64,000 nt of DNA from Candidatus Altimarinota bacterium. Lineage in GTDB: Bacteria; Patescibacteriota; Gracilibacteria; JAHISY01. Of the stretch, positions 16,057 through 60,649 are shown piece by piece (position 1 is the stretch's first letter; each line of letters begins with the position of its first letter). Below the pieces are notes generated by a model. It did not search any database. It saw only the letters and a program-made list of their open reading frames with translations, and was not told the origin of the DNA. The position numbers and the translations under genes are program-made. Location of the stretch: assembly GCA_028690585.1 (NCBI GenBank), contig JAQVAZ010000001.1:62001-126000 (forward strand), given 5' to 3'.

Positions 16057-16132
16057 AGGCCCATAGTGTCAATGGTTAGCACACCGGTCTCCAAAACCGT
16101 TAGTGAGGGTTCGAATCCTTCTGGGCCTGCCA
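16057..16132 (+). tRNA. tRNA-Trp (CCA)
   Basis: The 76-nt cloverleaf has acceptor AGGCCCA/TGGGCCT, D-stem GTGT/GCAC, anticodon loop CTCCAAA (anticodon CCA), T-arm GAGGG TTCGAAT CCTTC and encoded CCA. The outermost anticodon-stem pair is mismatched. The CCA anticodon reads only UGG, which agrees with TGA being a stop here. Confidence 0.93.
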
Positions 16133-16143
16133 GCAACAAGGTT

Positions 16144-16169
16144 CTTCCGCCATAGGCGGAAGGTTTTTG
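16144..16169 (+). terminator. Hairpin after tRNA-Trp, probable terminator
   Basis: CTTCCGCC and GGCGGAAG form an eight-pair stem with loop ATA, followed by GTTTTTGG. Position and T-run suit a terminator, although the palindrome also resembles the dispersed GC-rich palindromes of this genome. Confidence 0.55.
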
Positions 16170-16287
16170 GTGCTGCTGGTTTACGAAGGTGAGGATTCTC
16201 CCCGTAGAGGAATAATCTTTAGTTTTTCACTCGGGTTTTGAGGCGGCTCGTGAAGGAATTTTGAATTTAAAAAAATGATTGGCTCGC

Positions 16288-16330
16288 TTCGAATCCCTGC
16301 CTGCCGGCAGGCAGGCTTCTGGGCCTGCCA
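16288..16330 (+). pseudogene. tRNA-Trp 3'-end remnant interrupted by a 20-bp palindrome
   Basis: TTCGAATC (16288-16295) and CTTCTGGGCCTGCCA (16316-16330) together reproduce the last 23 bases of tRNA-Trp exactly. Between them sits the perfect palindrome CCTGCCTGCCGGCAGGCAGG (16296-16315) and nothing else. The remnant lies 156 bases after the intact tRNA. It looks like an old attachment-site copy later hit by a palindrome insertion. The 155 bases between the two copies contain no gene. Confidence 0.75.
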
Positions 16331-42689: not shown

Positions 42690-42731
42690 AGGTAGCTTTT
42701 TAAAAACGTTGGTGCGTTATTTTAAGTAGTT

Positions 42732-42904
42732 GGCGAGGGAGGATTGAAGTTAGCTTCAAAGTTATTCTACAATAAAATTTCTAAACCAATCGTCTGGAAA
42801 TCTTTTCTTAAATTAAAATTTTTTCTCTACAGCGGATATTCGCGCCTCCACACTCCCCACGCCAAAACCTGCCACCAAAGGTGGCAGAACTTGTCGTGGT
42901 GGGC
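42732..42904. repeat. Tandem unit 1 of left-end array (hairpin 42845-42912)
   Basis: A conserved ~100-base AT-rich segment (contains CTTAAATTAAAATTTTTTCT) is followed by a hairpin. CCTCC pairs with GGAGG and CCCCACG with CGTGGTGG; the inner stem TGCCACC/GGTGGCA has loop AAA. AACC and GAAC flank the inner stem. Confidence 0.75.
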
Positions 42905-43077
42905 GAGGGAGGATTGAAGCTAGCTTTTAGATTTACCTAAAACAAAATTCCTACACCAGTCGCCTGGAAATATTTTTCTTAAATTAAAATTTTTTCTCTA
43001 CAGCGGAGATTCGCGCCTCCACACTCCCCAGAAAAAAATAACCCCCGCCAAGACGGGGAACATTTTTTCTGGTGGGC
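42902..43077. repeat. Tandem unit 2 of left-end array (hairpin 43016-43085)
   Basis: Same layout as unit 1, but the middle stem is AGAAAAAAAT paired with ATTTTTTCT and the inner stem is CCCCG/CGGGG. The outer CCTCC/GGAGG stem is kept. The unit begins with a copy of the tRNA-Ile 3' end. Confidence 0.75.
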
Positions 43078-43255
43078 GAGGGAGGATTGAAGTTAGCTTT
43101 TAGATTTACCTAAAGCAAAATTCCTCCACTAGTCGCCTAGAAATCCTTTTCTTAAATTAAATTTTTTTCTCTACGAGGAAATTCTCACCACCCCACTCTC
43201 CACACAAAACCTCCACTCTTCGAGTGGAGAACTTGCGTGGTGAGAAGGGTGGTAG
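43075..43255. repeat. Tandem unit 3 of left-end array (hairpin 43187-43253)
   Basis: Same layout. The outer stem has changed to ACCACCC/GGGTGGT, the middle to CCACACAA/TTGCGTGG and the inner to TCCACTC/GAGTGGA with loop TTC. Changes occur on both sides of each stem, so pairing is kept. Confidence 0.75.
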
Positions 43256-43436
43256 TAGATACTTTCCTTTTCACTTCACTCTTGATTTCAATAAGAAACG
43301 CTGTATTCGGAAAATCAATGGGAGGAATAAGTTTATTGAGGAGGTTTACTTGAAAGAGCGCGAAATCCCTTTTGAGAGCATTGATTCTTTGAATTTAATC
43401 AGTAAGGAGAGGGATGAGGTAGTAATGAGCATCTAG
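43224..43436 (+). CDS. Small hypothetical protein at island left end
   Basis: A 70-codon frame starts with GTG inside the right arm of hairpin 3 and encodes a polar protein containing FPFHFTLDFNKKRC and ISKERDEVVMSI. The start inside the repeat suggests either a chance frame or a gene tail joined to the attachment site by recombination. No family recognised. Confidence 0.3.
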   Translation: MENLRGEKGGSRYFPFHFTLDFNKKRCIRKINGRNKFIEEVYLKEREIPFESIDSLNLISKERDEVVMSI

Positions 43437-43500
43437 TGATCATCGGTTTTTAGGTTAAAACCTAAGAATTTACATTTTAATCCTTAATTATTTCGTCAAA

Positions 43501-44085
43501 ATGGGAAGATATTACTACGACAAAAAGGTAACAGTCGAAGACTGTAAAGGAATAAGTGTTTTCTTTCTAAAGAAACATGGGTATTTTTCTAACTTTTACC
43601 GATCTGGAACTTTGCGTTGGCTCAGGAATAGCGAGGAAACAGGGAATATTGGCATTTCAATAGATGCTGATAATCAATATCTGAGGGTGGAGTACATTTC
43701 CACAGATAGAGAGACTGGAGAAAAGAGGGAAAAGGATTATAAGATCAGGGTTACTAGCACTAGTTGTCATTTTGGTGGGTATAGATATTGGTTTTCGTGC
43801 TACTTTTGTAACAAACGAGTAGGCAAACTTTTTATTTATGGCAAAAATGATTTTGCTTGTCGGCATTGCTTGGATCTGAGTTATAAAATCAGAAATGCTG
43901 GTGGTTTTGAAAGAATGGTCGGCAAAATAGCTAACGCTGATGAGCTTGATGAAATGAGAGAAAATCTAAGAATCAAATACTATCGAGGAAAACCTACTAA
44001 GCGTTTTCAAAATTATCTTAAAAAGAGTGATGAATTCAAAAAGGCGATAGTCTTGGCGGAAAGAAGTTTAAGCGAATTATGGTAA
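43501..44085 (+). CDS. Zinc-ribbon protein of the mobile island
   Basis: The 194-aa protein has a beta-rich N-terminal half (GTLRWLRNSEETGNIGISID) and a zinc ribbon in the middle: FSCYFCNKRVGKL followed by FACRHCLDLSY (C-x2-C...C-x2-C, about residues 99-125). A basic helical C-terminus follows. I recognise this architecture from uncharacterised proteins that travel with serine-recombinase elements in many bacteria. It may bind DNA or RNA during transfer or integration, which is inference. Confidence 0.65.
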   Translation: MGRYYYDKKVTVEDCKGISVFFLKKHGYFSNFYRSGTLRWLRNSEETGNIGISIDADNQYLRVEYISTDRETGEKREKDYKIRVTSTSCHFGGYRYWFSCYFCNKRVGKLFIYGKNDFACRHCLDLSYKIRNAGGFERMVGKIANADELDEMRENLRIKYYRGKPTKRFQNYLKKSDEFKKAIVLAERSLSELW

Positions 44086-44156
44086 ACCAAACACAACTCT
44101 GCATTCGTTGTGTGATATTGCGAAGCTATCACACAAAATGTCTAGTTGTGTTTGGT
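44086..44156. repeat. Nested inverted repeats downstream of the zinc-ribbon gene
   Basis: Outer arms ACCAAACACAACT and AGTTGTGTTTGGT are perfect 13-mers. Inside them TTGTGTGATA and TATCACACAA pair over a nine-base loop. No T-run follows, so it is not a standard terminator. It begins right after the stop codon and ends about 25 bases before the riboswitch-like RNA. Confidence 0.7.
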
Positions 44157-44179
44157 TTGGGGAAGTTGGTAGAATCAAA

Positions 44180-44275
44180 AAGCTTTCATCGAGAGTGCGG
44201 GGAGAGATTTGGCTCTACGAACCGCCAGCAACCTACCGACAAGGCAAGGTGCTAAAACCAAATGATGATACTCGG
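44180..44275 (+). ncRNA. SAM riboswitch-like leader (SAM-I clan)
   Basis: The sequence follows the SAM-I clan order. P1 arm TCATC (44186-44190) pairs with GATGA (44264-44268), and ATCGAGAG follows. P2 GCGG/CCGC encloses GAGAG and GGCTCTACGAA. GCAACC (44228-44233) and GGTGCTAAAACC (44247-44258) are the invariant joining and P3/P4 blocks. Downstream, GGAGGTTAAAAA and TTTTTAACTTCC form a hairpin (44277-44308) just before the next ATG and can act as the expression platform. It would bind S-adenosylmethionine. Finding it before tiny island genes is unusual. Confidence 0.72.
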
Positions 44276-44313
44276 TGGAGGTTAAAAACCTTTTGTTTTT
44301 TAACTTCCCTACA

Positions 44314-44490
44314 ATGACACTATTTTATGATCCAAAGTCGAAAAAAAATATTCAGCGTTCATGGTCAACGAAGGAGGATATCGAAAAAATGATGAAGGAA
44401 GCCAGAGAGAAAGGCTGGATTTATCAATGCACGCATTACATTACAAGAGAATCAGAGGAGGGTGAAGAATTGGGAGAAATAGTTTCTTAA
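44314..44490 (+). CDS. 58-aa protein under the SAM riboswitch-like leader
   Basis: The small acidic/basic helical protein has MTLFYDPKSKKNIQRSWSTK at its start and a Cys-His-containing stretch (YQCTHYI). No family is recognised. It starts 6 bases after the hairpin that ends the riboswitch region; a GTG start at 44275 would place the N-terminus inside that hairpin and is less likely. It is followed 9 bases later by another tiny gene. Confidence 0.5.
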   Translation: MTLFYDPKSKKNIQRSWSTKEDIEKMMKEAREKGWIYQCTHYITRESEEGEELGEIVS

Positions 44491-44499
44491 CTTTTTACA

Positions 44500-44655
44500 A
44501 TGACTAAAGAACTCTTAGGGCTTTGGGATGTAAGCGCAATGCTTCGCGAAGGCAAAACACCGCAAGAAATCGCGGCTATTATTTTTCCACAAATGGAAAA
44601 AAGAATGAAAGAATTAGAAACTAAGTCGTCCAGCAAAGAAAAAAACGACCACTAA
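44500..44655 (+). CDS. 51-aa protein, second gene after the riboswitch
   Basis: A helical protein containing LGLWDVSAMLREGKTPQEIAAII, which reads like a short helix-turn-helix or a dimerisation hairpin, followed by a charged tail. It probably forms a two-gene unit with the 58-aa gene. Its stop overlaps the stop of the convergent 44652-44840 gene by 4 bases. No family recognised. Confidence 0.45.
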   Translation: MTKELLGLWDVSAMLREGKTPQEIAAIIFPQMEKRMKELETKSSSKEKNDH

Positions 44656-44840
44656 GCACTCTTTTTTACCGAAGCCTTTTCTGCTTCTGTTAATTCTTTT
44701 CTCTTGTGTTCAAGCAATAGTTTACAAAACTCAATCAATTCCCTACCTCTAACTCTAGCTTTTTCATCGCTAATTTCCTCCCCAAACTCCTTTTTCCAGA
44801 TGGCTTTAAATTCTGCGATTTCTTCGTCTGAGATAGTCAT
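44652..44840 (-). CDS. Small helical protein, 62 aa
   Basis: The sequence MTISDEEIAEFKAIWKKEF, then GEEISDEKARVRGRELIEF, is a two-helix pattern I recognise from many short CPR and mobile-element proteins of unknown function. It lies downstream of the restriction operon on the same strand, 44 bases after the end of res, and may be co-transcribed with it. Confidence 0.6.
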   Translation of the reverse strand: MTISDEEIAEFKAIWKKEFGEEISDEKARVRGRELIEFCKLLLEHKRKELTEAEKASVKKSA

Positions 44841-44883
44841 AAGATAATATGTTAAAGGTAAGTTTGAATTAGTAGAATTACTA

Positions 44884-47397
44884 TTAACTCAAACTAGAAA
44901 AAGCTTCATTTATCCGTTGTTGCCAGTTTTGATCAGAGAAAACATCGTATCTCAGCGGTATAGTAGCAATCTTCAAACTATTCAAGTCTTCTCTCTGCTC
45001 AGCCAGCCGATTACAAAGCTCAAATACGCTTTCCTTATACTTAGTATCTTCGTTCATAAGGTGTAAGCCTTTAGTTTCTACAACATGGATATTTTCAACA
45101 CGCTTACCATCTTTTGAAAGTGTAAAAATAAAGTCAGGATAAATCTTGTGCTTCTTCCAGCCTTGCAAGGCATAATTTTGCCGAGCAGCATTACGAAACC
45201 AAAACAACAGCCGATCTTGCCCTTCAAGATAGCTCACGAATTCCTTTTCTAGCCCATTGAGAGACTCTTCTGGTATGAAATCCAGCAAACTTTTCTCACT
45301 TGGATGAAATGCGGATACTACTTCTTTAAATTTTTGTTCATGGGGAAATTGAAAACCACTTACAACCACAAAGCGAATTGTGTCATTCTTAATTAGCTTA
45401 TAGAAAATTCCTTCAATCAAACGATCTTTTTCACTCTGTAGATGCTTTTTGCTTTCTTCTTGGATGAAAATGAAATTATTGGCAACAAGTTTCTCGCCAT
45501 GCTTTTTGATCAATCTTTCGATTACTGTATTTCCAAAATCGTATGCGATCCATGGATTTGGCACAATCTCAATAAGATGGCGCGTAAGTAAAACCGTGTC
45601 GATCTCTAGCCCGCCAGCCTTGAGTTGTTTACTTGATTTCTCCTCGATCAGCTCATCCTCATCTTTTGACCATGCAAACACCAACTCTTTATCCTTTTCT
45701 TCCGTTTCAGACAAAGAGAGATCAAAGAGCTTTGAAATATCAGCTTCCTCCCAATCAATTCGGCTTTCGAGATCAACGATGTAATCCACAGATTCCCACT
45801 TTCCATTACGCTCGACCATGAATAATGGAAGTGTGATTGTTTTTGCAACTGCTTGGAATTGCTCTCGCATTTGTGCCACTTTTACAGTTGTCGATTTAGT
45901 AGCAATCTGCCCATCGCTTACCACAATACTATTCACGAGATCACCAAGTCCTTCTTCTATCAATCCTTCGCGCACACTTCTTATGAGCTTATCCGCCTGT
46001 TGTTGATACACGAAAACATAACTCTCATCGAGTTCCGCTATACCAGTTTTCGCGCCAAATGGTTGCCGAAGAATACGCCCGACAAGTTGGGTAAGCGCAT
46101 TTTTGGAAGTTGGTTTCGTGAGAATGGTGAGAACATACGCAAAAGCGCAATCCCAGCCCTCCTGAAGCGCCTGCTTCGTGATTATGAAGCGAATCGGACA
46201 CTCAGGCGACATAAGCCCGCCAAGATCATCTACGGCTTTAAGCTCGTCTTTCTCGCTAGTTTTAATCGCGATTTGTTCTGGAGGAACGCCAGCCTTCTCG
46301 ATTAAATATTCTTTCACATCTTCCGAATGGATGAAGCCACTTCCACGCTGCTCTTTGCCAGTCCGCTCGGCTTGGATTAAACAAATCGGGCGAATGTAAT
46401 TACCTGTTTCGGCATCGTATTCCTCGGCTTTACTACGAAGCTGATTAAGTTTTTCAATGCTTGCGAGTATGGTATCGTGCCAGTTAGTGCTTGTTTTATT
46501 CGTGATATGCAGGTCAAGCTTTATCATTCCTTCATCATTCAAACTTTTACCAGAAACGGAAACGAGGATATTACTACCGATGGGTGGTGTAGCAGAAAGC
46601 TCAACGATAAGAGAGGGATTTAATCCAAGGAGTGTTTCTTGCGCGAGTTTCGAGTAAGCCTTTTGCCCCTCATCTAAGATAATCATCGGATTCAACACAC
46701 GCAAAACATTTCCAAGCGAGGTTTTGATCTGCTTACCCCAAAACCCATTTTGTTTAGATTGCTCCTTCTCCCCACCGAAATAATCCAAGTTTGGAAATCT
46801 CTCGAGTAGTTTTTGCTGCTCTACATGATTATCTTCTGGCGGAAAAAACTCGGCAAAAGCACCGCTATCTTTGAAAACCTTGAGGGTTTCTTTAGTCTGT
46901 CGATTCGCCGCAGGCAACATCATGAGCAGCACGCATAAGCTTTGCTCTACATCGTTGGGCGTGAAGCGATCGGTTTTTTCGAGAATGAGTGTGCGACCGC
47001 CTGTAATGGTATCAAGCACTTGCCGATAGTGATGCCCTCGATCGCGCAAGGCGCGGAGTGTTTGATTGTAAATTTGCGTCGTCGGCACAACCCACAACAC
47101 AAGCCCAGTGCTTCTCTGATAAAAAGTATCATTGGCGATGCCGAGAGTATGCACGGCAAGCAGTGTTTTGCCGCCGCCAGTCGGAATCCTTAAACAAAAA
47201 TTCGGCACATCTTCGTGGAGTGCGTTTTGTTTTTCTTGATAATGAATCAGCTCACCATCTTTTGTTTTTATACCAAAAGTATTCCACGCATCGAGACTAG
47301 CGTGTTTACGATTGCCATCCTTACGCTCACGAGCGACTGCCGTGAGGTAATCGCGAATGCGAGCGAGTGTCGTTTCTTGATAGTGTTTGAGGTGCAT
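44884..47397 (-). CDS. Type III restriction enzyme, Res (helicase-nuclease) subunit
   Basis: The 837-aa protein has the superfamily 2 helicase core with Walker A TGGGKT (73-78), the DEAD-box equivalent ILDEGQKAYS and motif VI QLVGRILRQPFG. A C-terminal PD-(D/E)xK nuclease region contains VVETKGLHL. Res translocates or scans after the Mod subunit recognises unmethylated sites and cuts nearby DNA. Its ATG overlaps the stop of the protease gene by one base (TAATG), so the two are translationally coupled. It is the last gene of the mod-protease-res operon. All catalytic motifs look intact. Confidence 0.88.
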   Translation of the reverse strand: MHLKHYQETTLARIRDYLTAVARERKDGNRKHASLDAWNTFGIKTKDGELIHYQEKQNALHEDVPNFCLRIPTGGGKTLLAVHTLGIANDTFYQRSTGLVLWVVPTTQIYNQTLRALRDRGHHYRQVLDTITGGRTLILEKTDRFTPNDVEQSLCVLLMMLPAANRQTKETLKVFKDSGAFAEFFPPEDNHVEQQKLLERFPNLDYFGGEKEQSKQNGFWGKQIKTSLGNVLRVLNPMIILDEGQKAYSKLAQETLLGLNPSLIVELSATPPIGSNILVSVSGKSLNDEGMIKLDLHITNKTSTNWHDTILASIEKLNQLRSKAEEYDAETGNYIRPICLIQAERTGKEQRGSGFIHSEDVKEYLIEKAGVPPEQIAIKTSEKDELKAVDDLGGLMSPECPIRFIITKQALQEGWDCAFAYVLTILTKPTSKNALTQLVGRILRQPFGAKTGIAELDESYVFVYQQQADKLIRSVREGLIEEGLGDLVNSIVVSDGQIATKSTTVKVAQMREQFQAVAKTITLPLFMVERNGKWESVDYIVDLESRIDWEEADISKLFDLSLSETEEKDKELVFAWSKDEDELIEEKSSKQLKAGGLEIDTVLLTRHLIEIVPNPWIAYDFGNTVIERLIKKHGEKLVANNFIFIQEESKKHLQSEKDRLIEGIFYKLIKNDTIRFVVVSGFQFPHEQKFKEVVSAFHPSEKSLLDFIPEESLNGLEKEFVSYLEGQDRLLFWFRNAARQNYALQGWKKHKIYPDFIFTLSKDGKRVENIHVVETKGLHLMNEDTKYKESVFELCNRLAEQREDLNSLKIATIPLRYDVFSDQNWQQRINEAFSSLS

Positions 47398-48077
47398 TAT
47401 TTTGATCTAATTTTTTCTAAAGCATCTTTTAAATAATCAACAGCAAACGCATATCCAACGCCGACAAATCTGTTGCGATTAAGGAAGAAAATAATTCTCC
47501 GCAATGTCTCTGGTAACCGAATTCCAAACATCTGAATATCTCCTTGTAAATTTGGAATTATCTGCAATAAAGCGGCAAGATCGGAATCAAATTTCGCCTC
47601 TGTTCGTGTGATGATTCCAATAACACGACCACATTGATCTAAAACTGGTCCGCCAGAATTTCCTTGATTTATAGGACCATCAATTTGCAGAGCCTTAACG
47701 CCATCAATATCAATTTTTCTTGAAGCCCAACCTTTATGAATGGATAATCTCGGAAGATCTAATCCCTGCCCTGCGAAAATCACATCGCTAAACTCTTCAA
47801 ATTTATCGTAGACAACAAGCTCAAAAAATTTTAATTCTTTGCTTGCATTGACTTTGAGTATCGCAAAATCTTTGGTCTCATCGAGCATCGAAACTTGTGC
47901 TTCGAGTTGAGATTGATCGTCAAATCTAACTATTATATTCGTACTAGTTTGATTATTCTGTCTGACAACATGAGCATTTGTTGCGATCAGACCATCGCTA
48001 GAAATAATAAAACCACTTCCGCGAGAATTAATATCTGAACAATGGACAGAAGCGACCTTTTCTAAAACTTTTTTCAT
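47397..48077 (-). CDS. Trypsin-like serine protease inside the restriction operon
   Basis: The 226-aa protein is a chymotrypsin-fold (Trypsin-2/DegP-like) protease domain with a complete triad: His36 (ATNAHVV), Asp70 (ETKDFAILK) and Ser141 (QGNSGGPV). It has neither signal peptide nor PDZ domain, so it probably acts in the cytoplasm. It starts 2 bases after the mod stop and ends overlapping the res start, so it is made as part of the restriction system. A protease in a type III restriction operon is not part of the classical system. It might be activated during phage attack; this is inference. Confidence 0.85.
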   Translation of the reverse strand: MKKVLEKVASVHCSDINSRGSGFIISSDGLIATNAHVVRQNNQTSTNIIVRFDDQSQLEAQVSMLDETKDFAILKVNASKELKFFELVVYDKFEEFSDVIFAGQGLDLPRLSIHKGWASRKIDIDGVKALQIDGPINQGNSGGPVLDQCGRVIGIITRTEAKFDSDLAALLQIIPNLQGDIQMFGIRLPETLRRIIFFLNRNRFVGVGYAFAVDYLKDALEKIRSK

Positions 48078-48079
48078 CT

Positions 48080-49750
48080 TTATTCAGTTAATTGATAAAT
48101 CTCAAACGGCAGCTGTGAGAAAACGATCTTTCTCTCGTCAAGCTGCCTTTGATTTAGAAATTTAGTTGGCGCAAAAACAAGCCGCTTCTTTTCCTTCGGC
48201 TTGCCGAGCTTGTCTGCGAGAGTGAGATTGAAAGCGAGCGAGCGAAGCTTCGCAGAATCTGGCTCGTAAAAAAGATAAACCTCGTATTCGTGACTCTCAC
48301 CGATGAAATGCCGCTTCTCATTAAGAGTTTTTTCATTCCATTCCTCGCCAGTGGCGGTGTAGAAAACATACCGCGCTAACTCACTATAGCTCGGCAATCT
48401 TTTGCCATTCAGAATAGTTTTCATCTCAATCTCTTTGCCGAGATCAAAGTAGCTAAACGATCCGCCAAAACCTTTTCTCAGTTTCTCATCTTTCGCATTC
48501 GGTACACCACGCATCACTCGTCGCACACGCTCGGCGGTGATCGTGTCGGCATAATCCTCACACTCCACGAGAATAAACTTTCGATTGCCGCCGTCTTCTG
48601 CATTGAGGGCTAAAACAGCGTGAGCCGTCGTGCCTGAGCCAGCGAAGGAGTCGAGAATAATGGAATCTTTATCAGTAGAAAGTTGAATGATTTTTTTGAG
48701 AAGCGAAACTGGTTTTGGCGTATCGAAGAGATCTTCTGAGAAAATCGTTCTCATTTCATTTTTTGATGTTCTATTACTACCAACTTCTTGATGATTCCAT
48801 ATCGTTTCTATCGGCATAGCCTTTCTTTTGTCGGCATAGATTTTAAAATACGGATTCCATCCATTTTTACCGGAAATCCACTCAATTCTTTCAATCTCTG
48901 CCTCAATTTTCTTTTTACTCCAGCGCCAACACCCTTTTGCTCCACTAGATTCGAAAGGCAAAACTTTAGTTCCATCTGGTGCGATCAATGGATAAAACAA
49001 ACTTTCGCTTATGTTGCCACCCATCACGCGGAGCGGCTTTAGATAATAGACTCGTCCATTGGCATCTTTTTTGTTGTAGTGTTCAGGAATTTCTTCATCT
49101 ATGTAATTATTTGGAGCAAAAATATTTTTATTGTTTGTGTAAATAAGTATGTGATCATGTCTCACTGAAAATTTAGCATCCATTCTTGGACTATCTGATT
49201 TTTCCCAAATAACATTCGCTACAAAGTTCTCTTCACCAAAAACTTCATCCATCAGCATTCGCAGATGCGCCACTTCGTTGTCATCAATACTCACAAAAAT
49301 CGCTCCATCCTCACGCAGAAGATCGCGGAGTAGCTTCAGTCGCGGCATCATCATGCATAGCCATTTGTCGTGCCTCGTAAGATCTTCGCGATCCACAGTT
49401 TCCCCGAGCCACTCCTTATGCATTGGGCTATTTACCGCATCGTTGTATGCCCAGCCCTCGTTGCCAGTATTGTATGGCGGATCAATGTAAATACACTTCA
49501 CTTTTCCAGCGTAAGTCGGAAGCAAAGCCTTCAACGCTTTCAAATTATCGCCGTGAAGAATGAGATTATCATGCAAGCTTGTTTTCGCCGTGAGACTTTT
49601 TGACTTCTGTGGAATCAACTCACAATACGGCACACCGAGGTGATAGTTGGCGACAAACTGCTTACCTTTGAATTGTAGGGAGGGCACAGGAGGAGAAGCA
49701 AAGATCAGATTGCCCTCAGCCCTCAAACGAAAAGTGGGGCAACCCAGCAA
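48080..49750 (-). CDS. Type III DNA adenine methyltransferase (Mod subunit)
   Basis: The 556-aa protein is a beta-class N6-adenine methyltransferase: DPPYNTG (90-96) precedes the SAM-binding DSFAGSGTTAHAV in the C-terminal half. The surrounding LHGDNLKALKALLPTYAGKVK is typical of Mod proteins. Mod recognises the target site and, with Res, forms the restriction complex. The start is uncertain. The reading frame opens at TTG 49750, but the first ~35 residues look unlike other Mod proteins, and a GTG at 49687 is possible. It heads the operon and is divergent from the 50043 gene. Confidence 0.87.
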   Translation of the reverse strand: MLGCPTFRLRAEGNLIFASPPVPSLQFKGKQFVANYHLGVPYCELIPQKSKSLTAKTSLHDNLILHGDNLKALKALLPTYAGKVKCIYIDPPYNTGNEGWAYNDAVNSPMHKEWLGETVDREDLTRHDKWLCMMMPRLKLLRDLLREDGAIFVSIDDNEVAHLRMLMDEVFGEENFVANVIWEKSDSPRMDAKFSVRHDHILIYTNNKNIFAPNNYIDEEIPEHYNKKDANGRVYYLKPLRVMGGNISESLFYPLIAPDGTKVLPFESSGAKGCWRWSKKKIEAEIERIEWISGKNGWNPYFKIYADKRKAMPIETIWNHQEVGSNRTSKNEMRTIFSEDLFDTPKPVSLLKKIIQLSTDKDSIILDSFAGSGTTAHAVLALNAEDGGNRKFILVECEDYADTITAERVRRVMRGVPNAKDEKLRKGFGGSFSYFDLGKEIEMKTILNGKRLPSYSELARYVFYTATGEEWNEKTLNEKRHFIGESHEYEVYLFYEPDSAKLRSLAFNLTLADKLGKPKEKKRLVFAPTKFLNQRQLDERKIVFSQLPFEIYQLTE

Positions 49751-49783
49751 CCTGGTTGACCCTCACATTCGGCACTCACGCAC

Positions 49784-49978
49784 CTACAGCTCGGCAGGAA
49801 GCGGATTACCCCGCTTTGCTGCTGTAAATGCGTTTAAAGAGCCTTTATCCCCGAATACAATGAGAGTCAACGCGAGCATTCTCTCACATGGGTTAAGTGG
49901 TGGCAAAATAAAGCTGAATTCAGGATTAAAATCTAAAAAAACCTTCCTTAAGGAATTGATTATTTGATTTTTATTCAA
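49784..49978 (-). CDS. Short frame upstream of mod, possibly its broken 5' end
   Basis: A 64-codon ATG-started frame contains VFGDKGSLNAFTAAKRGNPL. It ends at a TAG 34 bases before the mod frame. The intervening 30 or so codons are open in the same frame except for TAG and TGA codons. It may be a real leader gene or a decayed N-terminal extension. No family recognised. Confidence 0.3.
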   Translation of the reverse strand: MNKNQIINSLRKVFLDFNPEFSFILPPLNPCERMLALTLIVFGDKGSLNAFTAAKRGNPLPAEL

Positions 49979-49981
49979 GAT

Positions 49982-50004
49982 AACCGATTTAAACGGTTTA
50001 TAAT
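49982..50004 (+). promoter_or_regulatory. Operator-like repeat and TATAAT box upstream of the 50043 gene
   Basis: AACCG and CGGTT flank seven bases (49982-49998) and run directly into TATAAT (49999-50004). Such a repeat overlapping a promoter suits a repressor site between the divergent mod operon and the 50043 gene. A second -10-like TAAAAT lies at 50028-50033. Confidence 0.45.
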
Positions 50005-50042
50005 CGCCAAGTCTTATTGATTTCGGCTAAAATCTGGCAAGC

Positions 50043-51113
50043 ATGATTGATCAAAAACCTAATTGGGCGAATCCAAACAAACTGCTTCTTGCTTGGTATT
50101 TACTGCAAATAGCAAAAGAAAAATCAGAGAAAAAATCTAAATTTGGGAAAGATTTTATCCGAGATTGTTTTCCAAATTTAACAACATACGAAATATTCAA
50201 GCTTTCAGATTTGGAAATGTTTCTGCGAGGTTTTATTAGAGATGGCTTGATTTCAGAAATGTATGAGGAGAGATTTATACATGACGAAAAGAAAGATGAA
50301 ACTGTCAGTAAGGGGGTTGAGCATATTACACTCGATAAAGTTAGCGACCTCTTTGATTTTAGCAGCATAGTTGGATCTGATATTTTTTCAATTGAATACG
50401 ATTTTAAAATCAATCACAAAAAAGTATTGAGTTTTATTAAGGATTATTTAGAAAAGTGGAAAAACGATAAGTTATTTTTGCCTGATATGAATTTCCCAAA
50501 AGCCGAAAAACAGCTCGAAAAAGTTGCAAAACATATTCACTATTTGTTGTGGAACTATTCTGTAGAAATGTTGCTGGTTGATGAGCCATATTCTTCCGAA
50601 AAAATAGACTTTATTGCAGGCATGCTTTTTCTGGAGAGTATTGGTGATATCGAAATATTAAAACTTGATGTAAAAAAGAAAGATAAACTTTTCGGCGGAC
50701 AAGAAATGGCTTTACGGGTTAACGTAAAGGATAAATTCTTCCAAGATTTCAAAGATGACCAGATTAGGCTTAATTTTGATTTTGAAAAATTAAAAAAAGG
50801 AGAAAAAGAAGAAATCCTAGACAAGATAACTTTCCATCCACCAAAACTACTGAGATTCAAAAATATCGAGTATGAGATAAAAGAGGGATGTATCCCTCAA
50901 ACTCTACTAAAGCTTGCTGCTAGTAAAAAAAGCAAAGCGATTCTTTCTAAGGAGTTGGAGGATGTTACGGAAGGAGGAAAAAAAGTAATTAAGAAAGCAC
51001 TCAATAATTTCCGCAGAAACCTCAGAAAAAAGTTTAGCTTCCCAAGTAATGAGCTTTTCTTTGAAGTGAAAGCGGGTGAAATTAGATTTAAAGACGATCT
51101 ATTTCAGTTCTAG
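50043..51113 (+). CDS. Hypothetical island protein with C-terminal winged-helix-like domain
   Basis: The 356-aa protein is AT-rich in codon use and lysine-rich. The N-terminal part (LLLAWYLLQIAKEK, then FLRGFIRDGLISE) is helical. The last 90 residues (CIPQTLLKLAASKKSKAILSKELEDV, then KKALNNFRRNLRKKF and two beta strands) have the helix-helix-wing order of OmpR-type winged helices. It could be a regulator of the divergent restriction operon or a separate defence effector. No family recognised with confidence. Confidence 0.55.
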   Translation: MIDQKPNWANPNKLLLAWYLLQIAKEKSEKKSKFGKDFIRDCFPNLTTYEIFKLSDLEMFLRGFIRDGLISEMYEERFIHDEKKDETVSKGVEHITLDKVSDLFDFSSIVGSDIFSIEYDFKINHKKVLSFIKDYLEKWKNDKLFLPDMNFPKAEKQLEKVAKHIHYLLWNYSVEMLLVDEPYSSEKIDFIAGMLFLESIGDIEILKLDVKKKDKLFGGQEMALRVNVKDKFFQDFKDDQIRLNFDFEKLKKGEKEEILDKITFHPPKLLRFKNIEYEIKEGCIPQTLLKLAASKKSKAILSKELEDVTEGGKKVIKKALNNFRRNLRKKFSFPSNELFFEVKAGEIRFKDDLFQF

Positions 51114-51185
51114 CCAAAAAAGCCATAAAAAAGTACTACTAGAAGGTCTATTTAGAGCCTTTCTTTCAAGGGAAAATACCCCACG

Positions 51186-51344
51186 ATGAAAAGTGAGGTT
51201 AAGCATGCCGAAAGAATAGTGAGTAATCGCTCTGAAATAATATTGAGAGCGCATTATCCTGAAGATAATCCCAAAGAAACACTTGAGGGAATTACTAATG
51301 CGCTTTCACAGATGGGAGTATTTGATGGAATTGATAAAAAGTAA
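51186..51344 (+). CDS. 52-aa protein preceding the recombinase
   Basis: The ATG-started frame begins MKSEVKHAERIVSNRSEIIL and contains HYPEDNPKETLEGI. Similar tiny genes often precede serine recombinases in CPR elements, which is a recollection rather than something tested here. It lies 50 bases upstream of the recombinase in the same direction and might be an excision or control factor. Confidence 0.5.
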   Translation: MKSEVKHAERIVSNRSEIILRAHYPEDNPKETLEGITNALSQMGVFDGIDKK

Positions 51345-51358
51345 CTTCTCTAACCTTA

Positions 51359-51387
51359 TTGATTTCGGCTAACTAAGTGGATAGAAT
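51359..51387 (+). promoter_or_regulatory. Promoter of the serine recombinase gene
   Basis: TTGATT (51359-51364) and TAGAAT (51382-51387) are spaced by 17 bases, and the -10 ends 8 bases before the ATG at 51395, so the mRNA is probably leaderless. The -35 lies in an 18-base sequence (51355-51372) that also occurs at 50013-50030. Confidence 0.55.
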
Positions 51388-51394
51388 CTAACTG

Positions 51395-53068
51395 ATGAAC
51401 AGTTTCGGTAACAGTACGGAGAGCAAGAGAAGGGTGGCTATCTATATTCGTGTATCTACCGTAGAACAAAAGATTGATGGATATGGGTTAGAAGCTCAAG
51501 AAAAGAAGTTGCTTGATTATGTGAATCAAAACACAATGCTTGGCTTAGAGACTAAGCGAGAGTGGATTTATAAAGATGTTCACACTGGTAGTGATTTTAT
51601 GCGTCCAAAGCTTCAGGAGCTACTAGCAGATGTTAAACAGGGTAAGTTTGATGCGGTGTTGGTTTGGAAGATAGATCGTCTTTCGAGATCATTGAAGCAC
51701 TTATTGAGTATCTTTGAGACTTTTGAAAAGAATCAAGTTAGCTTTGTTTCAGTTCAAGAAAACATTGATTTTCGTGGAGCAATCGGCAAATTGATTTTTC
51801 AGATCTTCGGAGCAATCGCACAATTTGAAAGAGAGTTGATTAAGGGTAGAACCCAAATGGGAAGGCTAACTTCTGCTGAACTTGGAAATTATATCGGAAC
51901 TCATATTCCCTATGGATACAAACCAGTCGCTAATCCAAACGGAAAAGGTAAGAAGCTAGAAATCATTCCAAAGGAAAAGAAACAAGTTGAGGAAATCTTC
52001 AATTGGTATATCTACGAAGAACTAGGTGATGGTCAAATAGCCAAGAGACTGAATGAATTGAGAGTTCCAAAAGGAGAACATACGAAAGCTAAAGATATGT
52101 ATTCATCATGGACTGCAAAAGTTGTTTCAAAGATTATTGAGAATTCGCTTTATAGAGGTGAGTGTGTAGCAAACAGAAAAGACGAAAATGGTGGTGAGCT
52201 GCTAGAAAAAGATTGGACTGTTGTTAGTATTCCTCCATGTGTTTCCGAATTTACTTTTTATCAAGCTCAAAATGCTCGTAGAAGTCGCGTAGGAGGTAGG
52301 AGAAATACAGATTATCTACTTACTGGGAAGCTCGTAGATATGACGCTAGAGACTCCTAAGAAGTTTAGTGGAGCAAAAAGGCACAAAGGAGGATTCAGCT
52401 ATCGCCGAAAGCAATTCCAAAAAGCTGGCAATCATTATCCTGTGTTTGAGATAGCTGGGAAGCAGATGGAAGATTGGGTTTGGGAAAAGATAATGAAGGC
52501 GATGAAAAATCCTGAGATTTTTATCAAACATTATCTTTCAAAGAAATACAGTGATCCTACAAGAATTCAGAAAATCGAAGATAATTTAAATAATCTTCGA
52601 GAAAGAAAAGTAAATGAGGAGATCGCGATCGGTCGGATTGAAGAAGCTTTTGAAAAAGGCACTTATAGCGAAGAGAAGCTTCAAGAAAAAACTGCCAGTA
52701 AAAATAAAGAAATTGCTGATATTGATCAGAAGATTATAAAGCTAGAAGAAGAGCTGGGAATCTTGAGTTCAATAAGTGTTGAGGTTCAGAAACTTAAATC
52801 TGCTTCTGAGCAGGTGAAATATCGATTAGATAAGTTGCCTCATAAACAGAAAAAGATTCTTTGTGATTTGTTTGTGGAGAAAATTGAAATGAGGCGGGAG
52901 AAGGTTGGAAAGAAGTGGAAAATCCAAGCTGATGTATTTTTTCGTTTCAACCCTGATAAGTTCTCTGAACCAGCAGAAGTGGGTAGAACCCAAAAACTCG
53001 ATAATAAAAGTGCGACAGAATCAAAGCATCCCAAAAAGGGATTTGATGGTGGGCGAGGGAGGACTTGA
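51395..53068 (+). CDS. Large serine recombinase (island integrase)
   Basis: The 557-aa protein has the resolvase catalytic domain with Ser21 in YIRVST, DRLSRS and the ELIKGRTQMGR helix, then the recombinase domain (to about residue 300). The position of the usual zinc beta-ribbon lacks its cysteine pairs (YLLTGKLVDMTLETPKKFSG). A long coiled coil follows at about 395-480. The last codons (GGRGRT and stop) are read from the tRNA-Ile 3' end, so the gene end is formed by the attachment site. It would insert and excise the island. Confidence 0.9.
   Translation: MNSFGNSTESKRRVAIYIRVSTVEQKIDGYGLEAQEKKLLDYVNQNTMLGLETKREWIYKDVHTGSDFMRPKLQELLADVKQGKFDAVLVWKIDRLSRSLKHLLSIFETFEKNQVSFVSVQENIDFRGAIGKLIFQIFGAIAQFERELIKGRTQMGRLTSAELGNYIGTHIPYGYKPVANPNGKGKKLEIIPKEKKQVEEIFNWYIYEELGDGQIAKRLNELRVPKGEHTKAKDMYSSWTAKVVSKIIENSLYRGECVANRKDENGGELLEKDWTVVSIPPCVSEFTFYQAQNARRSRVGGRRNTDYLLTGKLVDMTLETPKKFSGAKRHKGGFSYRRKQFQKAGNHYPVFEIAGKQMEDWVWEKIMKAMKNPEIFIKHYLSKKYSDPTRIQKIEDNLNNLRERKVNEEIAIGRIEEAFEKGTYSEEKLQEKTASKNKEIADIDQKIIKLEEELGILSSISVEVQKLKSASEQVKYRLDKLPHKQKKILCDLFVEKIEMRREKVGKKWKIQADVFFRFNPDKFSEPAEVGRTQKLDNKSATESKHPKKGFDGGRGRT
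53028..53065. other. Right attachment site region (attR)
   Basis: A small hairpin ATCCC/GGGAT (53028-53042) is followed by GGTGGGCGAGGGAGGA, the tRNA-Ile 3' end. The arrangement of a hairpin directly before this sequence mirrors each unit of the left-end array. Confidence 0.55.
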
Positions 53069-53123
53069 ACCTCCGACCTCAACATTATCAGTGTTGCGCT
53101 CTAACCAACTGAGCTACTCGCCC
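53047..53123 (-). tRNA. tRNA-Ile (GAU)
   Basis: The 77-nt cloverleaf on the minus strand has acceptor GGGCGAG/CTCGCCC, D-loop AGTTGGTTA, anticodon GAT in loop CTGATAA, T-arm GGTTCAAGTCC and encoded CCA. Its 3' end overlaps the last 22 bases of the recombinase gene on the other strand and is the integration target. Confidence 0.95.
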
Positions 53124-57502: not shown

Positions 57503-60500
57503 ATGGATTATAACCATCTGGAAATCGAGCCGAAATGGCAGAAGCGCTGGGATGAATCTCAGCTTTACCGCGCGGATGATGCTGATACGAAGCGCGAGAA
57601 GCTTTATGTTTTGGATATGTTTCCATATCCGAGTGGCGCAGGTTTACATGTAGGCCACCCAGAGGGCTACACCGCAACCGATATCGTTTCGCGCAAAGCG
57701 CGGATGGAAGGTAAGAATGTTTTGCATCCGATGGGTTGGGATGCCTTCGGTTTGCCAGCAGAAAATCACGCCATCAAAACCGGAATTCACCCAGATAAAA
57801 ATACTGATGCGAATATCAAAACTTTTACCCGCCAAATCAAGGCGTTGGGATTCAGCTACGATTGGGAAAGAGAAATTACTACTAGCAAACCAGATTACTA
57901 CCGCTTCACGCAGTGGTGGTTTCTATTTCTCTACAAGCAAGGTTTAGCCTATCAGAAGGAAGCAGCGGTGAATTGGTGTGGTGATTGCCAGACGGTTTTG
58001 GCAAATGAGCAAGTCATCGATGGGAAATGCGATAGATGTAAGAATCCGGTGATTCAAAAGAAAATGAAGCAGTGGTTTTTCCGCATTACCGATTTCCTCG
58101 AAAAGAAAGGTAATACCAGCGGATTACTTGATGGCCTCGATAAAATCGATTGGCCAGAATCTACCAAGACTGGCCAGCGCAATTGGATTGGAAAAAGCGA
58201 AGGTGCGGAAATTGATTTCAATGTGAAGGGAATTTCGCGCGGAGACTTGAATCGTGATTTTCATCCAAGCTCTGATAGCGATTGTGGAAATTTATTTTTG
58301 GTTACTTGGAATACCGTTGCGGAAAATGGCTGTGAAGAAAATGATTCTAAGAAAAAAGATTTCGCAGTAGGTGAAAAACTGATTGATTCAAAAGCAAAAG
58401 CGCAGGTGATTTTGCAGGGTTTAGCAGAGGCGGAAGATGCTGCGAAAGATAACTTCAGGATTCTTGAAGCGGTGGTAGCGGAAAATCATTTACACGCGGT
58501 TGTGTGGATTAATGATGATGCTGGTGGAATTGGGAAAGTTCTAAATCAACTGAAAGGAGTTTCTGCGAGAAGATTTTTTGAAAACTATCCAGAATTATCT
58601 AATGCGCTTAACTCCACCACCGTGCCTAACCCCACCGTTAACGGTGGGGTTAAAAAAGCTGGTGCAATCAAGAAAGATAAAAATAATAAATCTCAATTTA
58701 ACCATCTCTGGCGCAAAGGCTATCACTTCTCGCTACTTGCCAATCACGCTAGCTATGAGAATGCGATGAATTACATCGCGCAGCATTCAGAAAAATCTAA
58801 GGTTGCGAGTTTCTACGCGCAGCTGCCAGTGGCTTTACGCGTTTTTACCACTCGCCCAGATACTTTATTCGGCGCCACTTTTATGGTGGTAGCACCGGAG
58901 CATTCCATCATCCAGAATCTGAAATCGGAAATCACAAACTGGAAAGAAGTAGAAAAATATCTCGAAGAAGCTTCACGCAAAACTGAGTTGGCGCGCCAAG
59001 CGGAGAAAGAAAAAACTGGTGTAAAGCTTGAAGGAATCTCTGCTATCAATCCAGTGAATGGTAAGGAAACTCCGATTTTCGTAGCGGATTATGTGTTGAT
59101 GGGCTATGGCACTGGTGCGATTATGGCGGTGCCAGCGCATGATGAGCGTGATTTTGAATTTGCAAAAGTAATGAATGAGAAATATGGTAAGAATACAATT
59201 GAAATTAAATATGTAGTGATATCACAAACTGGCAGCTATCAAACACCATCAAAAAAACATGATTTCCAAACTTACGAAAGCTTAGAAGGTTTAAGGGCTC
59301 AGATATTAAAAGATCCAAGTGATGAGGTTGTGAGATCAATTCTCACTGGTTTAATAATTTCCAAAAGAGCTTTTGAGAATGCTGGAATTAGTTTTAATTC
59401 TGGAGAATTTTCTCTTTTAACTACCGAAGAATGTAAGAAAAAGATTATTGCGAAGTTAGAAAATGATGGAGTTGGTAAAGCGAAAATCACTTACAAGATG
59501 CGTGATTGGTTGGTAAGCCGTCAGCGCTATTGGGGTGCTCCAATTCCGATTATTCACTGTGAGAAGTGTGGCGCGGTGCCGGTCGCAGAAGCAGATTTGC
59601 CAGTGAAATTGCCTACCGATGTGGATTTTCATCCAACTGGTGAATCCCCGCTTGTGATATCGGAAACTTTCCACGCGGGAGTCACTTGCCCGAAGTGTGG
59701 AGGCAAAGCGCGAAGAGAATGCGATACGATGGATACTTTTGTTTGTAGCAGTTGGTATTACTTCCGCTATGCCGATCCGAAGAATGATAAAGAATTCGCC
59801 AGCAAGGAATTACTGAAGCAGTGGTTGCCAGTGGATCTTTACGTTGGTGGTGCTGAGCATACAGTATTACATCTCCTCTACTCGCGCTTCTTTACGAAAG
59901 CTGCGCATGCTGCGGGTTTGATTCAATTCGATGAGCCTTTTCTCAAGCTGCGCCACCAGGGAATGATTCTCGGAGAAGATGGTCAGAAGATGAGTAAATC
60001 TCTCGGCAACGTAATCAATCCTGATGAGGTTGTGAAAGAGTTTGGTGCGGATACGCTGCGCATGTATGAAATGTTTATGGGCCCATTCGAGGGTAGTTGC
60101 CCATGGAGCACGAAGGGTGTGATTGGCTTGCGCAGATTTCTTGAAAAAGTTTGGCGGCTGTATGAAAAAGTTTCTGATTCAACTGATACGAAGCTGGAGA
60201 AAACTCTTCATAAAACTATCAAGAAAGTGAGTGAAGATATCGATAGCTTCGGTTTCAATACGGCGATTTCTCAGATGATGATTTTTGTAAATGAAGCTAC
60301 GGGTGAAAAAGAATTTCCTCGCGCTTTTGCAGAAAAATTCTTGTTGCTACTTGCGCCTTTCGCACCACACTTCACAGAGGAATTGTGGGAGAAATTGGGA
60401 AATAAAGATTCGATTCACTCTCAACCTTGGCCAAAATTTGATGCGAAACTCACAGTAGATTCCACCATCACACTCGCAATTCAAATCAATGGAAAACTGC

Positions 60501-60649
60501 GCGATACCATCGAAGTGGCTGCGGATATTTCCAAAGAGGAAGCAATCAAACTCGCGAAAGCTTCACCCAACGCTGCGAAGTGGCTGGAGGGAAATGCCAT
60601 CAAGAAAGAAATCTATGTGACTGGGAAGCTGGTTAGCTTTGTGGTTTGA
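57503..60649 (+). CDS. leuS: Leucyl-tRNA synthetase with inserted HUH/Y1 domain
   Basis: LeuRS charges tRNA-Leu. The 1048-aa protein has class I motifs HVGH (49-52) and KMSKS (829-833). It also has the zinc knuckle WCGDC...CDRC, the CP1 editing domain (TTRPDTLFGA, AVPAHDERD) and a C-terminal anticodon-binding domain. Normal bacterial LeuRS has about 800-860 residues. The excess is an insertion of about 200 residues (243-443) between EGAEIDFNV and ALRVFTTRPD, two adjacent strands at the CP1 boundary. All LeuRS active-site motifs on both sides remain, so the enzyme is probably functional. The gene ends in TGA. Confidence 0.93.
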   Translation: MDYNHLEIEPKWQKRWDESQLYRADDADTKREKLYVLDMFPYPSGAGLHVGHPEGYTATDIVSRKARMEGKNVLHPMGWDAFGLPAENHAIKTGIHPDKNTDANIKTFTRQIKALGFSYDWEREITTSKPDYYRFTQWWFLFLYKQGLAYQKEAAVNWCGDCQTVLANEQVIDGKCDRCKNPVIQKKMKQWFFRITDFLEKKGNTSGLLDGLDKIDWPESTKTGQRNWIGKSEGAEIDFNVKGISRGDLNRDFHPSSDSDCGNLFLVTWNTVAENGCEENDSKKKDFAVGEKLIDSKAKAQVILQGLAEAEDAAKDNFRILEAVVAENHLHAVVWINDDAGGIGKVLNQLKGVSARRFFENYPELSNALNSTTVPNPTVNGGVKKAGAIKKDKNNKSQFNHLWRKGYHFSLLANHASYENAMNYIAQHSEKSKVASFYAQLPVALRVFTTRPDTLFGATFMVVAPEHSIIQNLKSEITNWKEVEKYLEEASRKTELARQAEKEKTGVKLEGISAINPVNGKETPIFVADYVLMGYGTGAIMAVPAHDERDFEFAKVMNEKYGKNTIEIKYVVISQTGSYQTPSKKHDFQTYESLEGLRAQILKDPSDEVVRSILTGLIISKRAFENAGISFNSGEFSLLTTEECKKKIIAKLENDGVGKAKITYKMRDWLVSRQRYWGAPIPIIHCEKCGAVPVAEADLPVKLPTDVDFHPTGESPLVISETFHAGVTCPKCGGKARRECDTMDTFVCSSWYYFRYADPKNDKEFASKELLKQWLPVDLYVGGAEHTVLHLLYSRFFTKAAHAAGLIQFDEPFLKLRHQGMILGEDGQKMSKSLGNVINPDEVVKEFGADTLRMYEMFMGPFEGSCPWSTKGVIGLRRFLEKVWRLYEKVSDSTDTKLEKTLHKTIKKVSEDIDSFGFNTAISQMMIFVNEATGEKEFPRAFAEKFLLLLAPFAPHFTEELWEKLGNKDSIHSQPWPKFDAKLTVDSTITLAIQINGKLRDTIEVAADISKEEAIKLAKASPNAAKWLEGNAIKKEIYVTGKLVSFVV
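58229..58831 (+). other. HUH (Y1_Tnp/RAYT-like) domain inserted in leuS
   Basis: LeuRS residues about 243-443 follow the IS200/REP-associated tyrosine transposase order. LFLVTWNTV is the first strand, followed by the helix around KAKAQVILQGLAEA. The metal-binding H329-x-H331 motif lies in ENHLHAVVWIN, then LNQLKGVSARRFF, LWRKGYHFSLL and the helix AMNYIAQHSEK with candidate nucleophile Tyr424. The usual wording of this family is NHVHLLV, LKGxTAR and YIxxQ/NP. All catalytic residues are present. The frame is open throughout. Confidence 0.85.
58627..58652. repeat. 26-bp perfect palindrome inside the inserted domain
   Basis: The centre is CCCCACCGTTAACGGTGGGG, extended by TAA and TTA on the two sides, with no mismatch. 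It encodes PNPTVNGGV in the loop between the HUH half and the tyrosine half of the domain. Confidence 0.85.

Follow-up and report, generated by a model that had tools for sequence, protein, structure and literature searches.

The tandem units beside tRNA-Ile

The question raised by this locus is what the three tandem units at nt 42727–43262 of the window (the whole stretch of DNA analysed here, 64,000 nt) represent. The original prediction located them correctly, with start-to-start spacings of 170 and 173 bp, and its account of the hairpins was accurate: the stems, correctly given, differ between the units in the manner described yet stay paired. The spacers, which it called nearly identical, show a measured identity of 77–87%. 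Three candidates were put forward, namely folded recombination sites similar to integron attC sites, a tandem structured RNA, or scars of repeated integrations. What had been missed is that TGGTGGGCGAGGGAGGA recurs at the borders of the units and is complementary to the 3' terminus of tRNA-Ile(GAT). The gene for this tRNA (nt 53047–53123, identified by ARAGORN and Rfam) is found about 10 kb to the right of the units, separated from them by a genomic island, and is carried on the minus strand, as is the tRNA-sense reading of the units. Judged from their sequence, and read on the minus strand, the three units are the tail of tRNA-Ile(GAT). Searches against Rfam gave only chance-level matches at the units.

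All features of the units are given here in minus-strand orientation, with the matches of a covariance model, R1, that was built from unit 3 and 15 other copies (see below). Unit 3 is closest to the tRNA in transcription order (nt 43070–43254; R1 match 43087–43254, 153.5 bits) and comprises a hairpin, an arm, a core and a direct copy of the tRNA-Ile 3' end. It is followed by unit 2 (nt 42897–43086; R1 match 42914–43086, 150.5 bits) and by unit 1, the most distant (nt 42727–42913; R1 match 42740–42913, 153.2 bits). The first hairpin, P1, is terminator-like and lies at nt 43206–43234 in unit 3, nt 43030–43070 in unit 2 and nt 42864–42892 in unit 1. The AACC and GAAC beside the inner stem are indeed fixed, as predicted, and on the minus strand correspond to the motif AAGTTCT/AGGTTTT, with G-U, U-U and U-G pairs. 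Next comes the arm, at nt 43182–43203 (GTGGAGAGTGGGGTGGTGAGAA) in unit 3, and at nt 43010–43029 and 42841–42860 in units 2 and 1, where it is a diverged inverted copy of the T-arm and acceptor strand of tRNA-Ile; the arm of unit 2 ranks first for its own tRNA. The core hairpin, P3, has the sequence CTAG-GCGA-CTAG in unit 3 (nt 43129–43140; helix 4 of the 16-copy alignment described below), CCAG-GCGA-CTGG in unit 2 (nt 42956–42967) and CCAG-ACGA-TTGG in unit 1 (nt 42786–42797), and shows covariation. At the end of each unit the 3' part of tRNA-Ile, from T-loop to CCA, is repeated in direct orientation (nt 43070–43091, 42897–42918 and 42727–42748 in units 3, 2 and 1, respectively), the CCA being decayed in unit 1. 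The P1 hairpin of unit 3, AAGTTCT...AGGTTTT, is identical in sequence to that of the tail behind tRNA-Leu(CAG), while the core of unit 3 is closer to that of unit 2, which points to copying from one tRNA locus to another.

The genomic island that separates unit 3 from tRNA-Ile (nt 43258–53046, the left border being approximate) is about 9.8 kb in length. Together with a SAM riboswitch, it carries genes for type III restriction and modification and for a large serine recombinase (nt 51395–53068, plus strand; PF00239 and PF07508), the latter gene overlapping tRNA-Ile at its 3' end. Both island junctions read CACCA, from which we infer that the island was inserted at this sequence after the array already existed. 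The outer stems reflect this arrangement, as those of hairpins 1 and 2 come from the tRNA-Ile 3' end while that of hairpin 3 comes from the end of the inserted island. The arm of unit 3 now pairs with the island end (predicted duplex energy –21.2 kcal/mol, relative to –16.2 kcal/mol with tRNA-Ile), and this accounts for the difference in the third outer stem. Within the island, the SAM-I riboswitch (nt 44183–44271) precedes small frames among which no methionine gene is evident, and a gene for a trypsin-like protease (nt 47397–48077) is situated between mod and res of the type III restriction system.

A genome-wide family of tRNA tails

A search of the 1.05-Mb genome using one unit as query recovered copies next to tRNA genes for Leu, Arg, Glu, Ser and Tyr. 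The DNA downstream of all 42 tRNA genes was then taken, and a copy of the tRNA's own last 23 bases was found within 330 bp in 16–18 of the 42 cases, exceeding 200 shuffles; the same 42 regions gave no strong match to the tRNA's own 3' end on the opposite strand. Members of the family occur behind 17 of the 42 tRNA genes, if the displaced Ile is included, and behind the tmRNA gene, and each copy carries the sequence of its host tRNA. The hosts are Leu-CAG, -TAG, -GAG and -CAA, Ile, Arg-TCT, -CCG and -GCG, Gly-CCC, Asp, Trp, Tyr, Glu-TTC and -CTC, Ser-CGA and -GGA, and Val-GAC, with tandem nests of tails at Ile, Leu, Glu and Asp. A second member lies within the window (nt 16133–16326, plus strand; R1 match 16116–16296, 133.7 bits), behind tRNA-Trp (nt 16057–16132), and consists of hairpin, arm, core, and a direct copy that is broken by a palindromic insert.

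One tail element was found without a recognised tRNA (L083:323–487, contig G000:C44); the sequence ...GCTGCTCAACCA upstream of it may be the remnant of a tRNA gene. Palindromic repeats of other kinds (GCCTTCGCCCTTCGGGCTACGGC..., TTCTTCGTTCC...GGAACTTCGAATGGC and AAATTTTGCTAACGCAAAAT...) start exactly after the CCA of about a dozen tRNA genes, and also after the CCA of second 3' copies. The tRNA 3' ends with such repeats are in loci L009, L013, L028, L030, L031, L032, L037, L044, L046 and L049.

Anatomy and tRNA specificity

Tail elements are 125–190 bp in length, lie directly behind tRNA genes or the tmRNA gene, and are read in the tRNA direction. The order is CCA of the host, P1 hairpin, arm, core hairpin, and direct 3'-end copy (T-loop to CCA), and the tRNA 3' end thus occurs three times, as direct, inverted and direct copies. 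P1 has a short U-rich tail and the fixed AAGTTCT/AGGTTTT motif, the exact form of which occurs 10 times in the genome, always within tail elements; two of the three hairpins of the tRNA-Ile units score as terminator-like on the minus strand. The core hairpin follows the covarying pattern NNNN-GCGN-NNNN, and GCTARC usually stands just before the direct copy. A third core helix just after TGAGAA was considered and dropped, as single-sequence folds disagree on it.

The arm is a diverged inverted copy of the T-arm and the 3' acceptor strand of the host tRNA. In it, the complement of the T-loop is usually altered to (A/G)TGAGAA (TGAGAA or a close variant in the units), an alteration that, on paper, would place a tandem G-A pair between arm and T-loop. 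For RtT, a review of covariation mentions a helix that frames a tandem GA (PMC8250186). Across 15 copies the arm scores higher against its own tRNA than against other tRNAs (8.27 vs 6.71, p = 1e-4), and the same holds across 45 loci, two of them from E. coli (7.06 vs 6.15, p = 5e-5), the possible partners of the arm (the tRNA, the second 3' end, and the arm itself) being so nearly the same in sequence that the fit singles out none of them. This specificity is unchanged when only Watson-Crick pairs are scored, and is clear in aggregate while weak for several single copies. No arm was detected behind tRNAs lacking a 3' copy (4.57, compared with 4.47 for random tRNAs).

Covariation and strand bias

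The original prediction had read the changing but paired stems as the mark of selection on a folded strand, and this was borne out in larger sets of copies. In an alignment of 16 copies from this genome, built from sequence alone, 93% of cells are standard pairs (shuffled mean, 68%) and 64 cells have changed on both sides, compared with 21.8 after shuffling. The covariation score for P1 and the core hairpin is 0.73, against 0.25 for shuffled alignments and at most 0.14 for slid partners. When other genomes are included (41 copies, whose alignment had been fitted to the structure), the score is 0.63 and that of shuffled alignments 0.19, again favouring the fold.

The substitutions are also asymmetric between the strands. 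On the tRNA-sense strand, which is the minus strand at this locus, the stems contain 23 G-T pairs and 3 A-C mismatches, in a count that takes no account of kinship between copies. Substitutions between arm and tRNA, counted with the same blindness to kinship, leave wobble pairs in 45 of 161 cases and break pairs in 9 of 151 (p = 2e-7). This asymmetry points to selection on RNA, or at least on the tRNA-sense strand, and argues against a palindrome effect of purely mutational origin.

Comparison with RtT and other repeats

The closest counterpart appears to be RtT RNA (RF00391), known from the tyrT operon of E. coli as tandem repeats of 178 bp, with the small RNA rttR. To our knowledge, the tyrT repeats have so far been treated as an enterobacterial oddity without a clear role. 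In E. coli tyrT, exact 19-bp copies of the tRNA-Tyr 3' end recur every 178 bp, and the arm (GAAGG-ATGAGAA) is constructed in the same way as those described above, as GGGGAAGGATGAGAAG inverts CTTCGAATCCTTCCCC with the same TC-to-GA change. The RF00391 model, which gives four matches on E. coli tyrT, covers exactly the stretch from arm to CCA, and in it the arm closes on the 3' copy. Both kinds of element lie directly behind a tRNA in tandem units of about 171–178 bp, each ending in a copy of the tRNA 3' end, and both have a TGAGAA arm that is complementary to T-stem and acceptor and able to close with the 3' copy. The core sequences, however, do not align, and the terminator-like hairpin and GCGA core hairpin of the tail elements are not part of the RtT model. 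RtT, in the stretch examined, concerns tRNA-Tyr only, whereas tail elements serve many tRNAs and tmRNA, each with its own sequence. RF00391 gave no match above the gathering threshold in the window or in the relatives, and E. coli gave no significant match to R1. On these comparisons, the tail elements are like RtT in anatomy and fall outside that family by sequence. Earlier work, as cited in PMC2965389, suggests that rtT may take part in the stringent response, which is not evidence for the present units. A search of the literature found papers on RtT and no description of this tRNA-tail family.

Resemblances to other repeats are more limited. REP/BIME sequences with their REP-associated transposases are likewise short, structured and present in many copies, and Y1 transposase domains are encoded in the present genome; the tail elements differ in containing tRNA sequence and in lying behind tRNAs. 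The direct repeats of integrating elements (PMC9897764) similarly leave part of the tRNA 3' end duplicated next to an intact gene, whereas the tail elements add an inverted copy and a fixed short core, occur at many isoacceptors in one genome, and have no recombinase gene within the unit.

Distribution in related genomes

A search of the genome and its relatives with R1 gave 28 matches in this genome, two to five in each of five sister-genus genomes, and single weak matches elsewhere in the class and in the phylum. As R1 includes the unit ends, this sampling of the relatives is not blind, although the tRNA-specific acceptor part hardly enters the model. Most of the weak matches that were opened lie at a tRNA 3' end and have that tRNA's own 3' copy; several have a recognisable inverted arm, and their core differs. 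Beyond the family of this genome, an RtT-like architecture is sparse, occurring in other families and also in further classes of the phylum. When all tRNAs of two genomes were inspected, 3' copies were present at about 5 of 46 (G002) and 1 of 37 (G034), the remaining raw matches being neighbouring tRNAs or marginal. A short-core subtype (GAAGTTTATGCCC...) was seen in only 2 of 192 genomes. A DNA-pattern search gave two matches each in GTDB genomes and viral contigs, none of them near a tRNA, and these were judged to be due to chance. No clean empty site was seen, and Leu-GAG differs between genomes. The uneven copy load suggests proliferation in the present lineage, and is more easily explained by a repeat that proliferates than by an RNA with a conserved function.

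Some further features of these genomes were noted. The tRNA genes inspected in G034 have no encoded CCA, and one Met tRNA there has a partial 3' copy 84 bases downstream (L171, G034:C1:181080–182000). There are relatives with TGA codons inside their open frames, which, taken with the size of the genome, suggests that the phylum is Patescibacteria.

Y1_Tnp (IS200-like HUH transposase) domains were found in long frames. The LeuRS gene of the window (nt 57503–60649, plus strand) encodes one in its editing region (aa 313–368), with H-L-H kept, and another is present in a 1308-aa frame that resembles IleRS by sequence (L181:1832–5758, contig G000:C40; MPNHIHLVV, YIRSNP). Y1 matches also occur in frames of 950–1236 codons in two related genomes, and two further genomes of the class have them in frames of about 1000 codons.

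Possible function and origin

We consider it probable (roughly 0.6) that the units belong to a family of RtT-like tRNA-tail elements that act at the RNA level through a closing helix and spread by copying and tandem duplication. Among the candidates of the original prediction, a tandem structured RNA comes nearest to this reading. Transcripts passing P1 would contain the arm and the second 3' end, whose pairing would create a closing helix that is tRNA-like and ends in CCA, similar to the one in the Rfam drawing of E. coli RtT; the tRNA itself is a further possible partner of the arm. The tail may accordingly affect maturation of the tRNA or be the source of a separate small RNA. Copying between tRNA genes, together with tandem duplication via the shared 3' ends, would multiply the elements, and at tRNA-Ile three copies would have accumulated before the serine-recombinase island came between them and their tRNA. 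Both the function of the tails and their mode of spread are candidate readings drawn from sequence comparison. Reverse transcriptase was rejected as a copying agent, as no RVT_1 domain was found in six genomes of the family.

A less probable explanation, and one we regard as tentative, is that the tails are MITE-like, non-autonomous elements that a transposase or recombinase mobilises in trans, that enter at tRNA 3' ends and duplicate the T-loop-to-CCA sequence there as a long target repeat, and that fold only for the DNA reaction. The burst of copies in one genome with few in its relatives, the tandem nests at four tRNAs, and the P1 hairpin shared by Ile unit 3 and Leu-CAG would all be expected of such an element, and it would be in keeping with the other repeat families that adjoin the CCA of both tRNA and second copy, and with the IS200-like Y1 domains. 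The wobble bias on the tRNA-sense strand is, however, difficult to reconcile with a fold used only in DNA, as are the U-rich tail and the fixed, imperfect motif that the hairpin keeps, and neither a parent element nor an empty site proving insertion was found.

The same strand bias bears on a very unlikely alternative, in which the covariation is mutational and arises by template switching in DNA palindromes (quasi-palindrome correction) with no selection involved. Arms and stems are palindromic and the arms track the local tRNA, consistent with such a process, but correction should erase mismatches while AAGTTCT/AGGTTTT keeps three non-Watson-Crick pairs, and an excess of G-U over A-C of 23 to 3 is not predicted by a process acting on DNA. 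Still more improbable is that the units are scars left by repeated integration of the serine-recombinase island at tRNA-Ile. Such scars were among the original candidates, and in their favour one end of the island is at tRNA-Ile and tRNA 3' ends are present within the units; this reading is largely refuted by the like units behind 16 other tRNA genes and tmRNA, where the sequenced tails have no island, and by the CACCA junction, which falls outside the units. Folded sites acting like integron attC, which similarly form tandem hairpins with conserved bases and variable stems, can be practically dismissed, as the GTTRRRY/RYYYAAC core boxes are absent from both strands, the inverted arms copy the tRNA 3' end, and no cassette genes lie between the units.

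If the RtT-like, RNA-level reading of the tails is extended, RtT itself could belong to a general class of tRNA-tail RNAs that spans distant bacteria and has so far gone unrecognised. Each tail would combine an anti-T-arm strand specific to its tRNA with a spare CCA end and act on that tRNA as a switch or as a decoy, and the tails would be copied between tRNA genes, possibly by Y1 domains such as the two inside LeuRS and IleRS; this wider proposal is speculative, and we think it rather doubtful. The direct-inverted-direct layout of the tRNA 3' end and the TGAGAA change are now seen in many small-genome bacteria. With tails on 40% of the tRNA genes of one genome, they become a comparative problem with many natural replicates, in which the fold, its dependence on the tRNA and the mode of spread can be tested. 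Partial copies of a tRNA beside its gene need not be scars of integration.
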